DNA from: a virus
Virus record (IMG/VR): IMGVR_UViG_3300005435_000034
Span: 1-38,088 of that record
Length of the DNA: 38,088 nucleotides
Reading direction: 5' to 3' (one strand)
In this document: positions 4,876-26,742 of the stretch, piece by piece
Position numbering within the stretch: the stretch's first letter is position 1
Layout of the letters: the number at the start of each line of letters is the position of its first letter
Made by a program: the position numbers and the translations under genes
Notes under the pieces: generated by a model
The model's input: the letters and a program-made list of their open reading frames with translations, nothing else
Databases searched by the model: none
Told to the model about the DNA's origin: nothing

Positions 4876-6702
4876 TCAGTACACAAACACCAGTTCGTGA
4901 ATGGCACGGGTAATGGCCACGTAGCATAGGTTCTGCTCCTGTTCCAGTTCCCACTCGGCCTTGGCCATCGGGTGCGGGCAGGGACCGTTAAAGGGTCGCA
5001 GGAAGAACACGCGCTCGGCTTCCAGCCCCTTGGCCTTATGAATCGAGCTAAAGCGAACGGCCTTACCCGTGGCGTCGTCGGTAAAGAGCGATTCGATTTC
5101 GGAAATCACGTCCTGGGCCGTCTTACTCTTATCGCCCTCGCTGGCGAAGCAGACGAGACAATCATGCTTATCCTGTAGAGCGATGAGCTTGTTCTCGTTG
5201 GGGTACTTTTTCTTACGCTCCTTTTCCTGTTCGGTCTCCAGCCACTCGGCCAAGTCTTCGACCAAAAGGCTCGCCAAACGGTCGCAAGGCTTCACGGGCT
5301 TACACAACTTCTCCACGAGCTTCACGAGTCCTTGCCCAATGTCGCGACCCTGGATCGTAGCCTTGATCCGGCGACGGAGGAATCGGAAGCACTCGCGGAC
5401 CAGGGGGGCGTTGACGCGGCAGAGGATAAAGTCGCCCGGCTTGACCTTGGAGCAGTAGCTCTGCTCCCAGGGAACCTCGACTTCCGCCCCGTCACGCTTC
5501 ACGACCGAGAACAACGCTTCATAAATCAGCCCTTCCGGGTTCGTCTCGAAAGCCCCGAAGTCTTCCACGTACTGGTTGGCCGCACTGACAATCGCCTTGC
5601 CACAGCGACGGGTAAAGGTCAGGGGCAGTTCCTTGCAACCACGAGCAGTTTTTTCGAGCTTGGTCTTCATGTTAGCCATGCTCTTACTGTCCGCGCCGGC
5701 GAAGCCGTAAATGGCCTGGCGGTCGTCGCCGACCATGATAAGGCGGTCGCCCGCTTTCATGGCCAAAGCCTGTTGGCAGGGCGACAAGTCCTGTGCTTCG
5801 TCAACGAGCAACAGGTCGTACTTTGGCATACCGAGGTTGTTCTTGACCGGCAGCCAAATCATGTCGTCAAAGGTGATCTTACCCTGACGGCGGGGGTCCG
5901 CCATACGGCTCATAACCTGGGGGACAAGCTCCATGACCTTCTCGCGGCCACCGTTCATCTCGACTTCAAAGTAATCGGCCACGTAGTCAATGTTATCCTC
6001 GGTCGGTTCCAAGAGGTTGACCTTGAGAAGCCGGACCAACTCGTTCGTGGCCTGAACCACGGGACTATAGCGTTTGCGAAGCTCCTCCGCAGTTACGTTT
6101 AGAAGCTCCTGTACCAAGTCCCACACGACCCACTGATTCGGCTCAAGCCGGCCATAAGCTTTCATGACGGCCTTGAAACCCATACTGTGCATGGTCATGG
6201 CGTCACAGCCCTGGGGAACGCGGGCCTGAAGCTCCGTAGCGATACTTTTGTTAAAGGCGACGAAGCAAATGGTACGTGGCTTCCTGCCCTCGCACATGGC
6301 CTCCCAAATCGCCTTCTGTTGCTTGCTGGGCGTGAACTTCGACGGCTGGCCCTTGACGGCCTTAAGACCTTCAACGAGCGTCGTGGTCTTACCCGAACCA
6401 GCGCGGGCCATGACCATAAGATGCGGGGCCAGGTTTGCGGCCAAATGGTCAACGAAGCTGTTGGCCATAGGCATTACGTTTTGCAGTCCGGCCAGAAGAC
6501 CCGTGGTCTTCGCCTTGACGGTCCCGGTCTTCTTCGGCATGGCCTTCTCCCCACAGCCCTCGTGAACGCCCTCCCTGAGCGAGTACAGGGGCTTGCCACA
6601 GATATTGCAAGTGAAGGGAACGTGTCCGCCGCAGTCCTCGCAAACTTCGCCGGCCGAGTTGTTCCCGCAACCTTCGTTTTCCAGTACACACCAAGTAGAC
6701 AT
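4876..6702 (-). CDS. UvrD/Rep-type superfamily 1 DNA helicase with N-terminal zinc-finger region
   Basis: 608 residues. Helicase motifs in order: Walker A ARAGSGKTTT (about 99-108), motif II LLLVDEAQDLSP, motif III MVGDDRQAIYGFAGAD, motif V FSSIHKAKGLEAERVF, and motif VI LCYVAITRA near the C-terminus. This is the full UvrD/PcrA order, in a protein shorter than bacterial UvrD (about 720). The first 55 residues carry cysteine pairs (CEDCGG, CNICGK) that look like a zinc-binding extension not usual in UvrD. It would unwind DNA 3'-5' during replication or recombination. AAAGGAG precedes the ATG, and a consensus promoter with the shared 15-bp operator lies directly upstream. Confidence 0.92.
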   Translation of the reverse strand: MSTWCVLENEGCGNNSAGEVCEDCGGHVPFTCNICGKPLYSLREGVHEGCGEKAMPKKTGTVKAKTTGLLAGLQNVMPMANSFVDHLAANLAPHLMVMARAGSGKTTTLVEGLKAVKGQPSKFTPSKQQKAIWEAMCEGRKPRTICFVAFNKSIATELQARVPQGCDAMTMHSMGFKAVMKAYGRLEPNQWVVWDLVQELLNVTAEELRKRYSPVVQATNELVRLLKVNLLEPTEDNIDYVADYFEVEMNGGREKVMELVPQVMSRMADPRRQGKITFDDMIWLPVKNNLGMPKYDLLLVDEAQDLSPCQQALAMKAGDRLIMVGDDRQAIYGFAGADSKSMANMKTKLEKTARGCKELPLTFTRRCGKAIVSAANQYVEDFGAFETNPEGLIYEALFSVVKRDGAEVEVPWEQSYCSKVKPGDFILCRVNAPLVRECFRFLRRRIKATIQGRDIGQGLVKLVEKLCKPVKPCDRLASLLVEDLAEWLETEQEKERKKKYPNENKLIALQDKHDCLVCFASEGDKSKTAQDVISEIESLFTDDATGKAVRFSSIHKAKGLEAERVFFLRPFNGPCPHPMAKAEWELEQEQNLCYVAITRAIHELVFVY

Positions 6703-6743
6703 GACTTGCTCCTTTAAGGTTCGCCCCTCTCTGTCTAAAGATA

Positions 6744-18684: not shown

Positions 18685-18866
18685 CTCTAAGTACGCTCTT
18701 GGAGTTAGGTACTTGCCTGGTGGTGCTTTTGGGTACGTTCTTTATGTTTCTGGAATCTCTACAGGCTTGGTGGATACGGAGACGTGACTTAAGAAAAAAG
18801 GAGGGTACGAATGCTCATTTTGTCACGGAAGGTGGGCGAGAAGATTCGTATCGGCGACAACATTGA
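18681..18866 (+). CDS. Small single-pass membrane protein
   Basis: 61 residues, ATGA overlap with the nuclease gene. The N-terminal 29 residues contain a hydrophobic segment (CLVVLLGTFFMFLESL) followed by a basic cluster (RRRDLRKK), so a single membrane pass with a cytoplasmic tail is likely. The last 18 codons overlap csrA in another frame, which includes the csrA ribosome-binding site. Function unknown. Confidence 0.45.
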   Translation: MTLSTLLELGTCLVVLLGTFFMFLESLQAWWIRRRDLRKKEGTNAHFVTEGGREDSYRRQH

Positions 18867-18993
18867 AATCATGGTTACGAGCATGGAACCGGGTAAGGTC
18901 CGGCTGGGGATAATCGCCCCCAGGGACGTACAGGTTTTGCGCTCAGAACTATTAAAACCCGAAGAAAGGAAGGACCATGCCGCAGGTCAATAA
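18811..18993 (+). CDS. csrA: CsrA, carbon storage regulator (phage-encoded)
   Basis: 60 residues, AAAAGGAGGGTACG before the ATG. Near-canonical CsrA: it starts MLILSRKVGEKIRIGDN, has GKVRLGIIAP (about 28-37) and VQVLRSELL, with Arg at position 44, the key RNA-contacting residue in Escherichia coli CsrA; L4 and R6 are kept too. CsrA dimers bind GGA motifs in mRNA leaders, usually blocking translation. Here it sits between a membrane protein and the Sak4-like gene, which overlaps its 3' end by 17 nt. It may retune host translation or regulate phage mRNAs. A second, divergent CsrA-like gene lies at 25387. Confidence 0.95.
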   Translation: MLILSRKVGEKIRIGDNIEIMVTSMEPGKVRLGIIAPRDVQVLRSELLKPEERKDHAAGQ

Positions 18994-22030: not shown

Positions 22031-22105
22031 GACCCGATAGCTCAAATGGATAGAGCGGCGGCCGTTACGGGTTCGCAGGTACGGGTTCAAACCCCGTTCG
22101 GGTCA
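22031..22105 (+). tRNA. tRNA, probably tRNA-Val(UAC), with atypical anticodon arm
   Basis: The acceptor stem GACCCGA (22031-22037) pairs perfectly with TCGGGTC (22098-22104). The D arm GCTC-AAATGGATA-GAGC and T arm ACGGG-TTCAAAC-CCCGT are canonical, and the discriminator is A. The anticodon arm fits best as a 6-bp stem (with one G-U pair and one C-U mismatch) and loop GTTACGG, giving anticodon TAC, with U33 correct but G at 32, 37 and 38. That is one base pair longer than standard. CCA is not encoded. The anticodon identity is therefore uncertain; a damaged or specialised tRNA is possible. Confidence 0.75.
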
Positions 22106-22314: not shown

Positions 22315-22536
22315 ATGAGTAAAGTAGGTGACAACGAGCGGGCGGACATGCCGGCCGAGTTGGTGGAAGCTGCCGACAAGTTTTTTATGGCGGGCCGCGA
22401 GTACCGGCAGTTTCTTAAAAAGCACTATCCCGACCGACTTCACGGCGTCGTATGGGTGGAAAGCGAAGACGGGGAACTGGCCCTCTACTGTGAGAATTCC
22501 TACTACACGAGCCGGATAAAGGAAATATCCCTGTGA
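22315..22536 (+). CDS. Hypothetical small protein
   Basis: 73 residues, ATG 18 nt after the preceding stop. A helical N-terminal half (LVEAADKFFMAGREYRQFLKK) is followed by a beta pair (GVVWVESEDGELALYC). The stop overlaps the polymerase GTG start (GTGA), suggesting translational coupling to DNA polymerase. Unrecognised. Confidence 0.5.
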   Translation: MSKVGDNERADMPAELVEAADKFFMAGREYRQFLKKHYPDRLHGVVWVESEDGELALYCENSYYTSRIKEISL

Positions 22537-24689
22537 TTGCTCTGGATACGGAAACCACCGGACTGGACCTGTACCACGGTGCCTTACCCTTCTTCGTGAC
22601 GACTTCGGATGAAGAGGGTAATCAAAAGTTCTGGGAGTGGGAGGTGGACCCACTGACGAGAAAACCCCAGATACCGCCGGGCGACCTGGACGAAATCCAT
22701 AACCTCTTGGAAATAGCGGGCACCTGGGGCGACAACTACGACGAAGAGACTTCCGACCGTCACGCCATTATCACCCAGAACGGTAAGTTCGACGCCACCG
22801 CTCTAAGGCAACTGGGTATCGACAATTGGCCCTGGGACAACCACCATGACACCTTGATTGCCGCCCACATTCTGGCCAGTAACCAGCCCCACGACCTGAC
22901 GAGCCTGGCACTCCACTATTTGGCCGTGGACATATTGCCTTTTGAGGACAACCTGCGAAAAGCCTGTATCTCGGCACGGACCATAGCCCGACGGAGCTAC
23001 CCGCGCTGGATATTGGCCAAGAAGGGCACGCCCGGTATGCCCAGTGCCAGGGGTAGCGGCGGCCGTAAGGTTGTTCGTGGCGTGGAAAAAGACAGTCTGT
23101 GGAAGTTCGATTGTTGGCTTCCCAAGCTCTTGGCGGATAGACTCAACTACCCCGAAGGTCACCCGTGGTATACGGTTCTTCGGGACTACGCCAACGCCGA
23201 TTCTGCGATTACGGCTGCCCTCTGGCAAGTCCTGGCGGCCGAACTCAAATCACGCGGCTATTGGAAAATCTACAAGGAGCGAATGAAGCTCATCCGCTGT
23301 TTCTCGGTCATGGAGGAGCGTGGGGCGACTATGAGTAAGACGAATACGGAACACATGGAGTGTGTCCGCCGGTCTCAGTCGGAAAACCGCGCCACGGTGC
23401 TGGTAGAACTGGCCAAGGGCTGTGACTACGATTTGAAGCTTCCCAAATCCGGTACGAGTAAAAACCTCAGTACCTTCGCCTTTGACGTGTTGGGTTTGCC
23501 GGTTGTAAAGACGACAAAAAAGGGTGGTAATCCCTCGCTGGACGATAAAGCCCTGGAAGAGTACGTCACCAGCCTGCCCCACCGCTCCAAAGCCCTGTGT
23601 TTCGTCAAGAACCTCCGCGAGAAGCGGAAGTTCGACACGGCCCTTCTCTATCTTGACCAGTACAAGCGTTACCGTCTGCCCTACCTCCCACCCGACTGGT
23701 TTGTGCTGCACCCCTCGGTCAACGTGACGGGCACGGACACGCTGCGGCACTCACATAGTAACCCTAACACGGCTAACGTCAGTAAACGAGACGAGGCGAA
23801 CCTCCGCTACTGCTTCGGGCCGGCACCTGGTCGGGAGTGGTGGTGTGCCGACGGGCAAAACCTGGAATTGCGTATCCCGGCCTATCTTGCCGGCGAAGAG
23901 GAAATGATTCGGCTTTTCGAGAGGCCCAACGACCCGCCCTACTACGGCAGTAACCACCTTCTGAATTTCCACACGGTCTACCCCGACATTTGGGAGGTCG
24001 AGCTAAAGGCCGTTGGGTATGAGAAGGTCGGGCCGCACATTAAGGAAAAGTACGCGGCGACGTGGTATCAGTGGGGTAAAAACGGCGGCTTCGCGGTCCA
24101 GTACGGCGCGGTTCTAAAGCGTGACGTGGTGGGCACGGCCGACCGAGCCTTCCACCGACCCGGCTCTCATGCCAAGCTCGTGGCCCGTTTCCAGCGTATC
24201 CACGGCTCTGGCGGACTCAACGAACAATGTATCCGGGAGGCAGAAAAGTACGGTTACGTTGAAACCGTACCTCGAAAGTCGGTGGACCCTATACGCGGCT
24301 ATCCGCTCATGGTGGCCCGTACCGAGTGGGGCAGCGTCTTACCCACGGTCCCCCTCAACTACAAGGTCCAGGGTACGGCTATGGATTGGACCAACGCCGG
24401 CCACGTCCGCTGTCAGGAGTACCTTGATAAGCTCAACGCGGACCTTGTAAACGCCTACAAGCTCAACTCGGTTGACGACGGCTATCATATCGTCTTGGAG
24501 GTTCATGACGAATTGGTGTTCGACTTCCCAGCCGGCACAGGACCGGAGCCGTGGAAGACGAACTTACCCGTCGCCCTGGAGTGTAAACGTCTTATGGAAA
24601 AAGGTGGGGAGGACATTGGCGTACCGACGCCCGTTAGCCTCAAGTACCACCCCAAGAACTGGGCCGAAGGAAAGGCGGTGAAGGTATGA
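22533..24689 (+). CDS. DNA polymerase, family A, with 3'-5' exonuclease
   Basis: 718 residues, GTG start coupled to the upstream gene. Exonuclease motifs: ALDTETTGLD (D5, E7), QNGKFDA, and YANADSAIT (Exo III). Polymerase motif A is ADGQNLELR (near residue 439) rather than the usual DYSQIELR, closer in style to T7 polymerase (DASGLELR). Motif B appears as GKNGGFAVQYG (near 516, the Lys-x3-Phe-x3-Tyr-Gly of the O helix), and motif C as EVHDELVF (near 657). No 5'-3' exonuclease domain is present. It is the phage replicative polymerase. The primase-helicase is encoded 2 kb downstream. Confidence 0.95.
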   Translation: MIALDTETTGLDLYHGALPFFVTTSDEEGNQKFWEWEVDPLTRKPQIPPGDLDEIHNLLEIAGTWGDNYDEETSDRHAIITQNGKFDATALRQLGIDNWPWDNHHDTLIAAHILASNQPHDLTSLALHYLAVDILPFEDNLRKACISARTIARRSYPRWILAKKGTPGMPSARGSGGRKVVRGVEKDSLWKFDCWLPKLLADRLNYPEGHPWYTVLRDYANADSAITAALWQVLAAELKSRGYWKIYKERMKLIRCFSVMEERGATMSKTNTEHMECVRRSQSENRATVLVELAKGCDYDLKLPKSGTSKNLSTFAFDVLGLPVVKTTKKGGNPSLDDKALEEYVTSLPHRSKALCFVKNLREKRKFDTALLYLDQYKRYRLPYLPPDWFVLHPSVNVTGTDTLRHSHSNPNTANVSKRDEANLRYCFGPAPGREWWCADGQNLELRIPAYLAGEEEMIRLFERPNDPPYYGSNHLLNFHTVYPDIWEVELKAVGYEKVGPHIKEKYAATWYQWGKNGGFAVQYGAVLKRDVVGTADRAFHRPGSHAKLVARFQRIHGSGGLNEQCIREAEKYGYVETVPRKSVDPIRGYPLMVARTEWGSVLPTVPLNYKVQGTAMDWTNAGHVRCQEYLDKLNADLVNAYKLNSVDDGYHIVLEVHDELVFDFPAGTGPEPWKTNLPVALECKRLMEKGGEDIGVPTPVSLKYHPKNWAEGKAVKV

Positions 24690-25108
24690 GTGAGCAGACT
24701 GTGTGTCTTCAGTTCGTCTACACCAACCACCGGGACGAAACGGCCGTTCGGCGCGTGTTTCCCCTGGTGTTCTGGACGGGTAAATCGAAGTGCTACGGGA
24801 ACGAGGAAGACGAACTGTTCCTAAAGGCGTTCGACCTGGACAAAATGGGCGTCCGCGACTTCATGGTGAAACGTATCGAGAGCCGGCTCAAAGTGGTCAA
24901 AGGTGATGCGGAGACGCTGAAACCGGGCGGCATACCAAGCCCCCAGGCCGAGCCGGTGAAGTTCGTAACCTCCGTGGATTTACCGAACACCCCCGGCGGC
25001 ATGACCCTCACGGTTAACAGCATGACCATGTACCGAGAGCCGGACGGCACACTTATACTACCTCTTAAGGAGTTGGAAAATGCCAAAAAAGACGGGTCGA
25101 AGACTTAG
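24686..25108 (+). CDS. WYL-like domain protein
   Basis: 140 residues, ATGA overlap with the polymerase gene. The N-terminal half fits a small WYL-like unit: LQFVYTNHRDETAVRRVFPL (about 8-27), then a segment with FLKAFDLDKMGVRDFMVKRI (about 46-65), corresponding to the Y-N-R-GE-RRV-P and LxAxDxxKxxxRxFxxxxI pattern. The C-terminal half is Pro-rich and unplaced. WYL domains bind ligands or nucleic acid and regulate; role here unknown. Overlaps the following gene by 29 nt. Confidence 0.5.
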   Translation: MSEQTVCLQFVYTNHRDETAVRRVFPLVFWTGKSKCYGNEEDELFLKAFDLDKMGVRDFMVKRIESRLKVVKGDAETLKPGGIPSPQAEPVKFVTSVDLPNTPGGMTLTVNSMTMYREPDGTLILPLKELENAKKDGSKT

Positions 25109-25394
25109 TGCCGATTCGTCGGTCGGAGACAAGGCCGATTATGTACGCTCCCAGGGACAAGACCGCGAACACCACTGTCATTGGCCCGGTTGTAAGGAAC
25201 AGGTGCCGCCGGCCATGTGGGGCTGTCGGAAACACTGGTATATGCTGCCGCAAATGATACGGGAGCGTATTTGGGCCTACTACCGGCCGGGGCAGGAGCG
25301 GGACATGCGACCGAGCCGGGAGTACCTTGCCACCGCTCAAGAGGCGGAAGAATGGATATTTCACACCTACGGCGAGAGGGCCTACCATGTCTGA
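25080..25394 (+). CDS. Conserved phage protein with Cys/His cluster
   Basis: 104 residues. The centre reads HHCHWPGCKEQVPPAMWGCRKHW (positions about 31-53, with H31, H32, C33, H34, C38, C49 and H52 as possible metal ligands), followed by LPQMIRERIWAYYRPGQE and RPSREYLATA. This pattern, a CHWPGC ... WGCxxHW zinc-like site and IWxxYRPGQE helix, recurs in small phage proteins of unknown function as far as I recall. Overlaps the CsrA-like gene by 8 nt. Confidence 0.55.
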   Translation: MPKKTGRRLSADSSVGDKADYVRSQGQDREHHCHWPGCKEQVPPAMWGCRKHWYMLPQMIRERIWAYYRPGQERDMRPSREYLATAQEAEEWIFHTYGERAYHV

Positions 25395-25593
25395 GCAAGT
25401 AATCGTGGGCAGGCAGCAAGGGCAGGTCTTTACCGTCGTGCTACCGAGCGGCCAGAGGGTGGTAATTGAAACGCTGAAATGTCGTGACGGTTACGTGAAA
25501 CTTTTGGTAGAATCGAAGGATAGCTTCGTAGTCGAGCGGTATAACCACGGTTCGGAAACAATCGACCGCGTACCGAGTGTACCAAGGCTATGA
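25387..25593 (+). CDS. Divergent CsrA-like RNA-binding protein
   Basis: 68 residues from ATG 25387, the only start that is not deep inside the previous gene. It follows the CsrA scheme: VIVGRQQGQVF (5-15) matches the LxLxRxxGExI start, RVVIETLKCRDGYVKLLVE (24-42) matches the second and third strands, and VVER (48-51) matches the VxREEI strand with Arg at the R44-equivalent. It has a 3-4-residue N-terminal extension and a longer beta1-beta2 turn (LPSGQ) than canonical CsrA. Its stop overlaps the mom-like start (ATGA), the same architecture as com-mom in phage Mu. Fold assignment is by eye. Confidence 0.6.
   Translation: MSEQVIVGRQQGQVFTVVLPSGQRVVIETLKCRDGYVKLLVESKDSFVVERYNHGSETIDRVPSVPRL
25514..25528 (+). 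promoter_or_regulatory. Candidate CsrA-type hairpin upstream of the mom-like gene
   Basis: CGAAG (25514-25518) pairs with CTTCG (25524-25528) around GATAG; the sequence AAGGA spans stem and loop, so a GGA lies at the loop, as CsrA sites require. It is inside the CsrA-like gene, about 60 nt before the mom-like start. Chance occurrence is possible. Confidence 0.25.
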
Positions 25594-26522
25594 ACAATCA
25601 GGCACAAGGCTGGCTATTCGACCTGGGGACGGGCCGGACCCGCTACACGGCCTACAAGGATAAGCCGTCGGGCCGATTCAACCTGTGTGATATTGAGCGC
25701 AAAACGTGTGAGGAGATGGTACGCGAATACCACTACTCCGGCACGCACGAGTATGAGGGATTGGACAAAGACGGACTACCCACGAGATATTGCCAAAGAC
25801 TCCCCGGAATCGTACGGGCCTGGGGTCTTACGGACGGTGACGATTTGGTAGGCTGTGTGGTCTACAGTATCCCCGCGTCCATGACTCTATGCCGGGGCGT
25901 ATGCGGCCCGGAGTATACGCGGGACGTTTTGGAATTGTCGCGGCTCGTCATTACGACCGAGGCGGCCAACGCCGCCAGCTTCCTGGTCGGTAATAGCCTG
26001 AAGCTCTTGGCCCTGGAAGGCTATACCGTACCGACCGAACCCGGCTCCAGGGAGCGGGTGCGAAAAAACTGTGCCGTCGTGGTTTCCTACGCGGACGGCT
26101 CCGACCGGGCCGGTCACGTAGGCTACGTCTACCAGGCCACCAACTGGATTTATACCGGCCAAGGGGCACGTCAGCCGGTTTACGTGGAGGACTCCACCGG
26201 GAAAATCGTCTCTTACACTGAGAGACATATTGACGTAAAGGCCCGTGCTTTAGGCTATAAATGGGAACCCAACGCCCGCAGAGGGCCGGGGCTTACCGAA
26301 TACTTGACCGAGGGCAAACACCGCTACGTTACGTTCGTGGGGGACAGGAGGTGGGTGAAAAAGGCCAGGGCAGCCCTCCGCTACGAAGAACTGCCCTACC
26401 CCAAAGGAAAGACCCGAAAAGACGCGCCGAATTTTACTCGCCGCCCTGAGCCTTCTTCAGAAGTTTCTTGCCCTGAGCCGACAGCCGCAGCGTCACAACG
26501 TCCTTGCCGTCGATCTCGATAA
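25590..26522 (+). CDS. Mom-like DNA-modification protein (adenine modification, GNAT-like fold)
   Basis: 310 residues, ATGA overlap with the CsrA-like gene. Family features: EYHYSGTH (about 46-53), a strand-helix block with LELSRLVITTEAANAASFLV (about 113-132), then VVVSYADGSDRAGHVGYVYQ (about 160-179) and ATNWIYTG, the VxSxADxxxGHxGxxYQAxNW signature of Mom-type proteins. In Mu, Mom adds a methylcarbamoyl group to adenine N6 and shields DNA from restriction. Length exceeds Mu Mom (about 230). The last 27 or so codons overlap the opposite-strand gene at 26434-26742 and look like readthrough sequence (Pro/Ser/Arg-rich). Substrate specificity unknown. Confidence 0.75.
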   Translation: MNNQAQGWLFDLGTGRTRYTAYKDKPSGRFNLCDIERKTCEEMVREYHYSGTHEYEGLDKDGLPTRYCQRLPGIVRAWGLTDGDDLVGCVVYSIPASMTLCRGVCGPEYTRDVLELSRLVITTEAANAASFLVGNSLKLLALEGYTVPTEPGSRERVRKNCAVVVSYADGSDRAGHVGYVYQATNWIYTGQGARQPVYVEDSTGKIVSYTERHIDVKARALGYKWEPNARRGPGLTEYLTEGKHRYVTFVGDRRWVKKARAALRYEELPYPKGKTRKDAPNFTRRPEPSSEVSCPEPTAAASQRPCRRSR

Positions 26523-26742
26523 CGTCCTTGATAACGTAACCGTCTCTGCCTAGCTGTGCCAAGTTACTGTAAACGCAACTACCCATCGGCAGTTCGCGGT
26601 AGAGGTGCCAGTCTCCGTCTTCCATTGCCTTTAGGAGACGGTACAGGTTCGTGGCCATACCGACCCGCTTGGCCTCTATGCCCTCCTTGTCGTCCTGAGC
26701 CTGGTATTTCCGCCACCGCTGTTCGACGTTTTGGTAAGCCAT
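26434..26742 (-). CDS. Winged-helix-like regulator candidate
   Basis: 102 residues from ATG 26742 (TAGGAGCAACGAC upstream). After a helical N-terminus, NLYRLLKAMEDGDWHLYREL (about 32-51), SNLAQLGRDGYVIKDVIEID (about 59-78) and DVVTLRLSAQGKKLLKKA (about 80-97) fit the helix, recognition helix, beta-wing and C-terminal TxxG-like tail of MarR/PadR-type winged-helix proteins. It is transcribed away from the primase gene, and its promoter shares the 15-bp element, so autoregulation by it is a reasonable hypothesis. Its 3' end overlaps the mom-like gene by 89 bp, tail to tail. Confidence 0.5.
   Translation of the reverse strand: MAYQNVEQRWRKYQAQDDKEGIEAKRVGMATNLYRLLKAMEDGDWHLYRELPMGSCVYSNLAQLGRDGYVIKDVIEIDGKDVVTLRLSAQGKKLLKKAQGGE

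Follow-up and report, generated by a model that had tools for sequence, protein, structure and literature searches.

The analyzed stretch of DNA of an uncultured phage (38,088 nt; hereafter, the window) encodes a homolog of the DNA-modification protein Mom, the start codon of which overlaps the stop codon of a small csr-like ORF. Translational coupling is the economical reading of this overlap; in our opinion, the chances are about even that the two form a translationally coupled pair, in which mom follows translation of the csr-like gene and the latter encodes a divergent paralog of CsrA. The mom start codon is predicted to pair with a stretch inside the csr-like ORF; ribosomes translating this ORF would unzip the pairing and then reinitiate at mom, and mom output would track translation of the upstream gene. 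The divergent CsrA paralog, P0001, would be produced in step with Mom, and regulation of mom by P0001 would not be required. P0001 may act on other mRNAs of the phage or of the host; alternatively, P0001 may pair with CsrA and blunt the action of the latter. Mom, judging by its family, would then protect the phage DNA from host restriction by modifying its adenines, as Mu Mom does.

Genes and sequence features of the locus:

18811–18993, plus strand: canonical phage csrA, P0007 (PF02599, 75.3 bits; phrog_9500, CsrA-like regulator)
22533–24689, plus strand: family A DNA polymerase, the head of the gene cluster and the bait for finding relatives
25080–25394, plus strand: P0003 ORF (phrog_18063), the 5′ neighbor, with an 8-nt overlap with the csr-like ORF
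25387–25593, plus strand: csr-like ORF, P0001 (68 aa), a divergent CsrA-fold candidate
25584–25587, plus strand: AAGG, a weak Shine-Dalgarno-like sequence for mom, seen in the sequence
25590–25593, plus strand: ATGA stop/start overlap of the csr-like ORF and mom, seen in the sequence
25590–26522, plus strand: mom homolog, P0002 (310 aa), with PF25680 and phrog_1384 matches and motifs that align with Mu Mom
26434–26742, minus strand: small PadR-like winged-helix candidate (E 0.01, under the cut-off)

The mom gene and its surroundings

As judged by its sequence, P0002 is certainly Mom at the family level. The original prediction of a Mom-type gene is borne out by a PF25680 match of 87.6 bits (E 1.1e-24; cut-off 27.1) and by a match to phrog_1384, “Mom-like DNA modification protein” (E 1.5e-35). 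When aligned with the Moms of Mu, Listeria, Proteus, Acinetobacter, and others, P0002 keeps the motifs HY..R, ELxRL, S[FY]A[DE], YQA[ST]N, and YPK and has an insertion in the HY..R region. The activity expected of a Mom-family protein is carbamoylmethylation of adenine in phage DNA.

Both ORFs, the 68-residue length of the first, the ATGA overlap, and the weak AAGG before mom are present in the sequence as originally described. The cluster belongs to the replication region, and its gene order is DNA polymerase, two small genes, the csr-like gene, and mom, all co-directional; P0003 and the csr-like ORF are thus parts of one co-directional cluster. Codon usage in the csr-like frame resembles that of the known genes of the phage, and the other frames are unlike them. 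The PadR-like candidate is convergent with mom, and its tail overlaps the mom 3′ end. A search with P0003 returned one relative, beside which no csr-like gene was called. The sole Rfam match in the window is a tRNA; this tRNA-Val (tac), at 22031–22105, lies just 5′ of the polymerase cluster.

An ATGA overlap is nothing special here: of the 44 junctions between co-directional genes in a gene list of the window compiled by hand, 10 are four-nucleotide overlaps. The mom gene of Listeria phage LP-013 also has an ATGA overlap, formed with an unrelated 69-aa gene. With P0001 and P0007 as tblastn queries, a CsrA-like gene was found at none of the 80 Mom loci collected by similarity; among 80 phage-CsrA loci, the sole Mom within 6 kb is that of phage L082, where the polymerase intervenes. 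The csr-like/mom pair was conserved in no relative found, and the open-access literature searched contained nothing on CsrA and momification together.

The canonical csrA, overlooked in the original prediction, scores above the PF02599 cut-off. It lies between an exonuclease gene and a Sak4-like gene. Of the 13 phage records in which a related DNA polymerase was found, 12 have a csrA match (11 above the family cut-off), and one, L082, has mom; because some records may be fragments, the absence of mom from a record is not proof. Within these records, csrA is a lineage trait and mom is not. In L082, mom directly follows the polymerase and overlaps its stop codon (TAATG), with no csr-like gene between them; in L083, the same slot holds an MT-A70 methyltransferase gene (5667–6710); and no Mom was found in L084. 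Thus, the post-polymerase slot holds differing DNA-modification genes, which are swapped at one locus between L082 and L083, and this comparison makes the csr-like gene an addition seen solely in the phage studied here.

The modification slot is followed by a small minus-strand gene (window 26434–26742, L082 8924–9469, L083 6744–7229, and L084 10502–11131), which is opposed to its neighbors and precedes the primase gene where one is seen. In some of the phages, its product is winged-helix-like; in L082, the gene is difficult to call. In the primase/helicase ORF of L082 (9811–13110), the two segments that match the primase of the window are separated by an intein-like insertion (about SDDTEVLT...VVSG).

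Probable kinship of P0001 with CsrA

We consider it probable that P0001 is kin to CsrA; its sequence suggests that it is most likely a divergent paralog of the phage’s own CsrA. The CsrA pattern originally ascribed to it is real but weak: PF02599 is the top Pfam match, but at 12.4 bits (E 0.15), under the cut-off of 27, and DUF7391 scores almost equally. PHROGs, NCBIfam, and PDB sequences gave no CsrA link, and a general profile of 60 phage CsrAs gives P0001 a score of 4.5 bits, a value also attained by 282 of 19,460 scored shuffles. AlphaFold run without an alignment produced a poor model, with CsrA absent among the listed structural matches. All these results favor the reading that P0001 is not related to CsrA, being a small beta-rich orphan, the gene of which would overlap mom as a matter of ordinary packing.

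We regard that reading as unlikely. Tests conducted within the lineage speak against it. A profile of 11 CsrAs from the related-polymerase phages scores P0001 at 8.9 bits, equaled by 14 of 20,000 shuffles. When P0001 was compared with 2827 ORFs of these phages, canonical CsrAs took three of the top six non-self ranks, an outcome that one of 100 shuffled queries matched. The residues that P0001 has kept also argue against an orphan. R9 and R51 align with R6 and R44 of CsrA. From strand 4 to the R44 equivalent (β4–β5), the alignment is gap-free, and this stretch matches CsrA in length. The position of R51 is invariant in the CsrA alignment, and R44 of E. coli CsrA is essential in RNA binding (PMC7366521). 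Between strands 2 and 3, P0001 carries four extra residues, but a similar insert, PSDG, occurs in the same loop in the CsrA of the related phage L174. It should be added that the mean pairwise score of P0001 against the same 60 phage CsrAs has a z of 3.8, a level reached by 6 of 1000 shuffles.

P0001 has lost the LGI-x-AP motif, which adjoins the RNA-binding edge in CsrA, and no relatives of P0001 were found in viral contigs, GTDB genomes, or sequenced phages. Fold prediction, which had been proposed as a check, gave a mixed answer as to the domain-swapped five-strand dimer typical of CsrA. With four CsrAs supplied as the alignment, AlphaFold reached a block-mean pLDDT of 81–89 over residues 11–50, and the best five Foldseek matches of this model are CsrA/RsmA; however, such a model presupposes the answer, because its alignment was seeded with CsrAs, and the model made without an alignment is uninformative, the lack of CsrA among its listed matches ruling nothing out. 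The lack of csr-like relatives in the searches and the CsrA-seeded origin of the model both count against the reading of a coupled pair that includes a CsrA paralog.

Predicted RNA structure at the mom start and possible control of mom

Three segments of the csr-like ORF are relevant to the start of mom:

25514–25528, plus strand: GGA hairpin CGAAG-GAUAG-CUUCG (GGA at 25518–25520), the 3′ arm of which is common with the start-hiding pairing
25526–25533, plus strand: segment predicted to pair with 25586–25593, i.e., with the end of the Shine-Dalgarno sequence and the mom start codon
25548–25568, plus strand: possible hairpin with a second GGA (25554–25556) at its top, 36 nt past the first GGA

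The pairing of 25526–25533 with 25586–25593 has a predicted probability of at least 0.93 in three of four folding windows and of ~0.7 in the fourth. Few of the starts tested are less accessible than that of mom (mean unpaired value 0.21), although its opening energy is only middling in the same comparison. The start is hidden equally well in 36 of 500 codon-preserving shuffles and in 2 of 500 shuffles made with the codon usage of the window; the whole-fold z is −1.67. By these figures, the burial predicted for the mom start is statistically marginal, which counts against translational coupling. On the side of coupling are the poor accessibility of the start, the frequency of four-nucleotide junctions in this phage, the TAATG junction of L082, and the ATGA junction of LP-013. 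Long-range pairing of a start with the upstream ORF has been described for coupled genes (PMC6728339). Moreover, since coupling alone would need the mom start to be buried, its predicted burial is no special sign of a Com-like gate.

A GGA hairpin about 60 nt upstream of mom was part of the original prediction. The hairpin at 25514–25528 does exist and ends 61 nt before the ATG, but the first G of its GGA is in the stem rather than in the loop. GGA is not enriched in this region (two in 214 nt versus ~4.2 expected from the window frequency). While the two GGAs in the csr-like ORF can each be drawn at a hairpin tip, the same is true of 116 of the 753 plus-strand GGAs in the window, with at least five stem pairs. 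Similar hairpins being common in the window, the hairpin by itself was rejected as evidence.

An alternative explanation is Com-like activation, by which P0001 or the canonical CsrA would bind the GGA hairpin and hold it formed, freeing the mom start and turning translation on. Because the CUUCG arm of the hairpin overlaps the start-hiding strand, the two structures are mutually exclusive, and forcing the hairpin raises the predicted accessibility of the start from ~0.22 to 0.36–0.40 in three of the four folding windows, at a cost of 2.9–5.0 kcal/mol. In the fourth, however, the start stays closed (0.18 before and 0.10 after forcing; cost 1.2 kcal/mol). Other points in favor are the AAGGAU of the hairpin, which fits ARGGAU, the core of the SELEX consensus for CsrA as cited in PMC7492729, the second GGA further on, and the precedent of ymdA, which CsrA activates by opening a hairpin that hides the Shine-Dalgarno sequence (PMC7492729). 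Set against these are the ordinary frequency of GGA and of such hairpins, the loss of LGI-x-AP beside the RNA-binding edge of P0001, and the absence of the pair from the 80 Mom loci and from the phage-CsrA loci, with L082 having the only Mom located 6 kb or less from a csrA of a phage. The predicted competing geometry would fit a Com- or ymdA-like switch and also long-range translational coupling (PMC6728339). We consider Com-like activation possible but quite unlikely. Less probable still is its more specific form, in which the divergent CsrA paralog took over the job of Com by binding the GGA hairpin in its own coding sequence, keeping this hairpin folded, and freeing the mom start, which would amount to protein-gated expression of a DNA-modification gene, invented independently and with a different RNA-binding fold. 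The competition between the hairpin arm and the start-hiding pairing is a point in favor of the com-mom analogy originally proposed; specific support for the functional analogy was not found, as the pair is unconserved, the overlap is routine, and the overlap in Mu is of 80 nt.

The least probable explanation is repression or autoregulation, in which P0001 or the canonical CsrA would bind the GGAs of the csr-like ORF and lower its translation together with that of the coupled mom: this is the commoner mode of CsrA action (PMC7492729), and two GGAs in possible hairpins lie inside the ORF, but neither gene has its Shine-Dalgarno sequence overlapped by a GGA in the manner typical of CsrA repression.

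A gate on mom, if real, would mean that mom is controlled by an unrelated RNA-binding fold in a second lineage, which would suggest that the gate itself is selected; it would also single out one specific target of a phage-borne CsrA. Should there be no gate, the csrA match in nearly all related-polymerase records still raises a testable question, namely which targets phage CsrA regulates.

Comparison with known systems

In Mu, mom is tightly gated. The Mu com-mom pair (PMC6483171) resembles the pair described here in that a small upstream gene overlaps a Mom-family gene, and in that RNA folding would bury the start of mom, here by a statistically marginal prediction, and a hairpin precedes it. 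The two differ in the upstream protein, Com being a CCCC zinc-finger protein whereas P0001 has one cysteine and no such cluster; in the extent of the overlap, 80 nt in Mu versus 4 nt for csr-like/mom; and in that the Mu pair is experimentally proven.

A small Cys/His-rich ORF of the Zn type, with the pattern CG[FW]CMTG..H..C...I..Y...W.C.C, lies directly 5′ of mom in ~17 aquatic viral contigs, several of which are near-identical (L258–L263, L279, L287, L302, and L305–L312; near position 2001–2130, with mom directly after). It overlaps mom by 8 nt or 4 nt, and 22 of the 66 loci counted for this ORF have a Mom match within 2 kb. Judging by sequence, this ORF and mom look like a recurrent com-mom-like pair, and the Cys/His-rich ORF looks like a better analog of Com than the csr-like gene.

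With CsrA/RsmA, including phage-borne csrA (PMC7366521), P0001 shares its length, the predicted order of strands, and the arginines aligned with R6 and R44; the phage, in addition, encodes a canonical csrA. P0001 differs from these proteins in scoring under the family cut-off, in the four residues inserted between its strands 2 and 3, and in the loss of LGI-x-AP. E. coli ymdA (PMC7492729) would be alike in its working, since there CsrA opens a structure that blocks ribosome binding; it differs in having a 5′ leader and proven sites, whereas here there are a gene overlap and a prediction. With ordinary translational coupling, the csr-like/mom pair has in common the ATGA overlap, the weak Shine-Dalgarno sequence, and the predicted pairing of the start with the upstream ORF, and its sequence reveals no difference from such a system.
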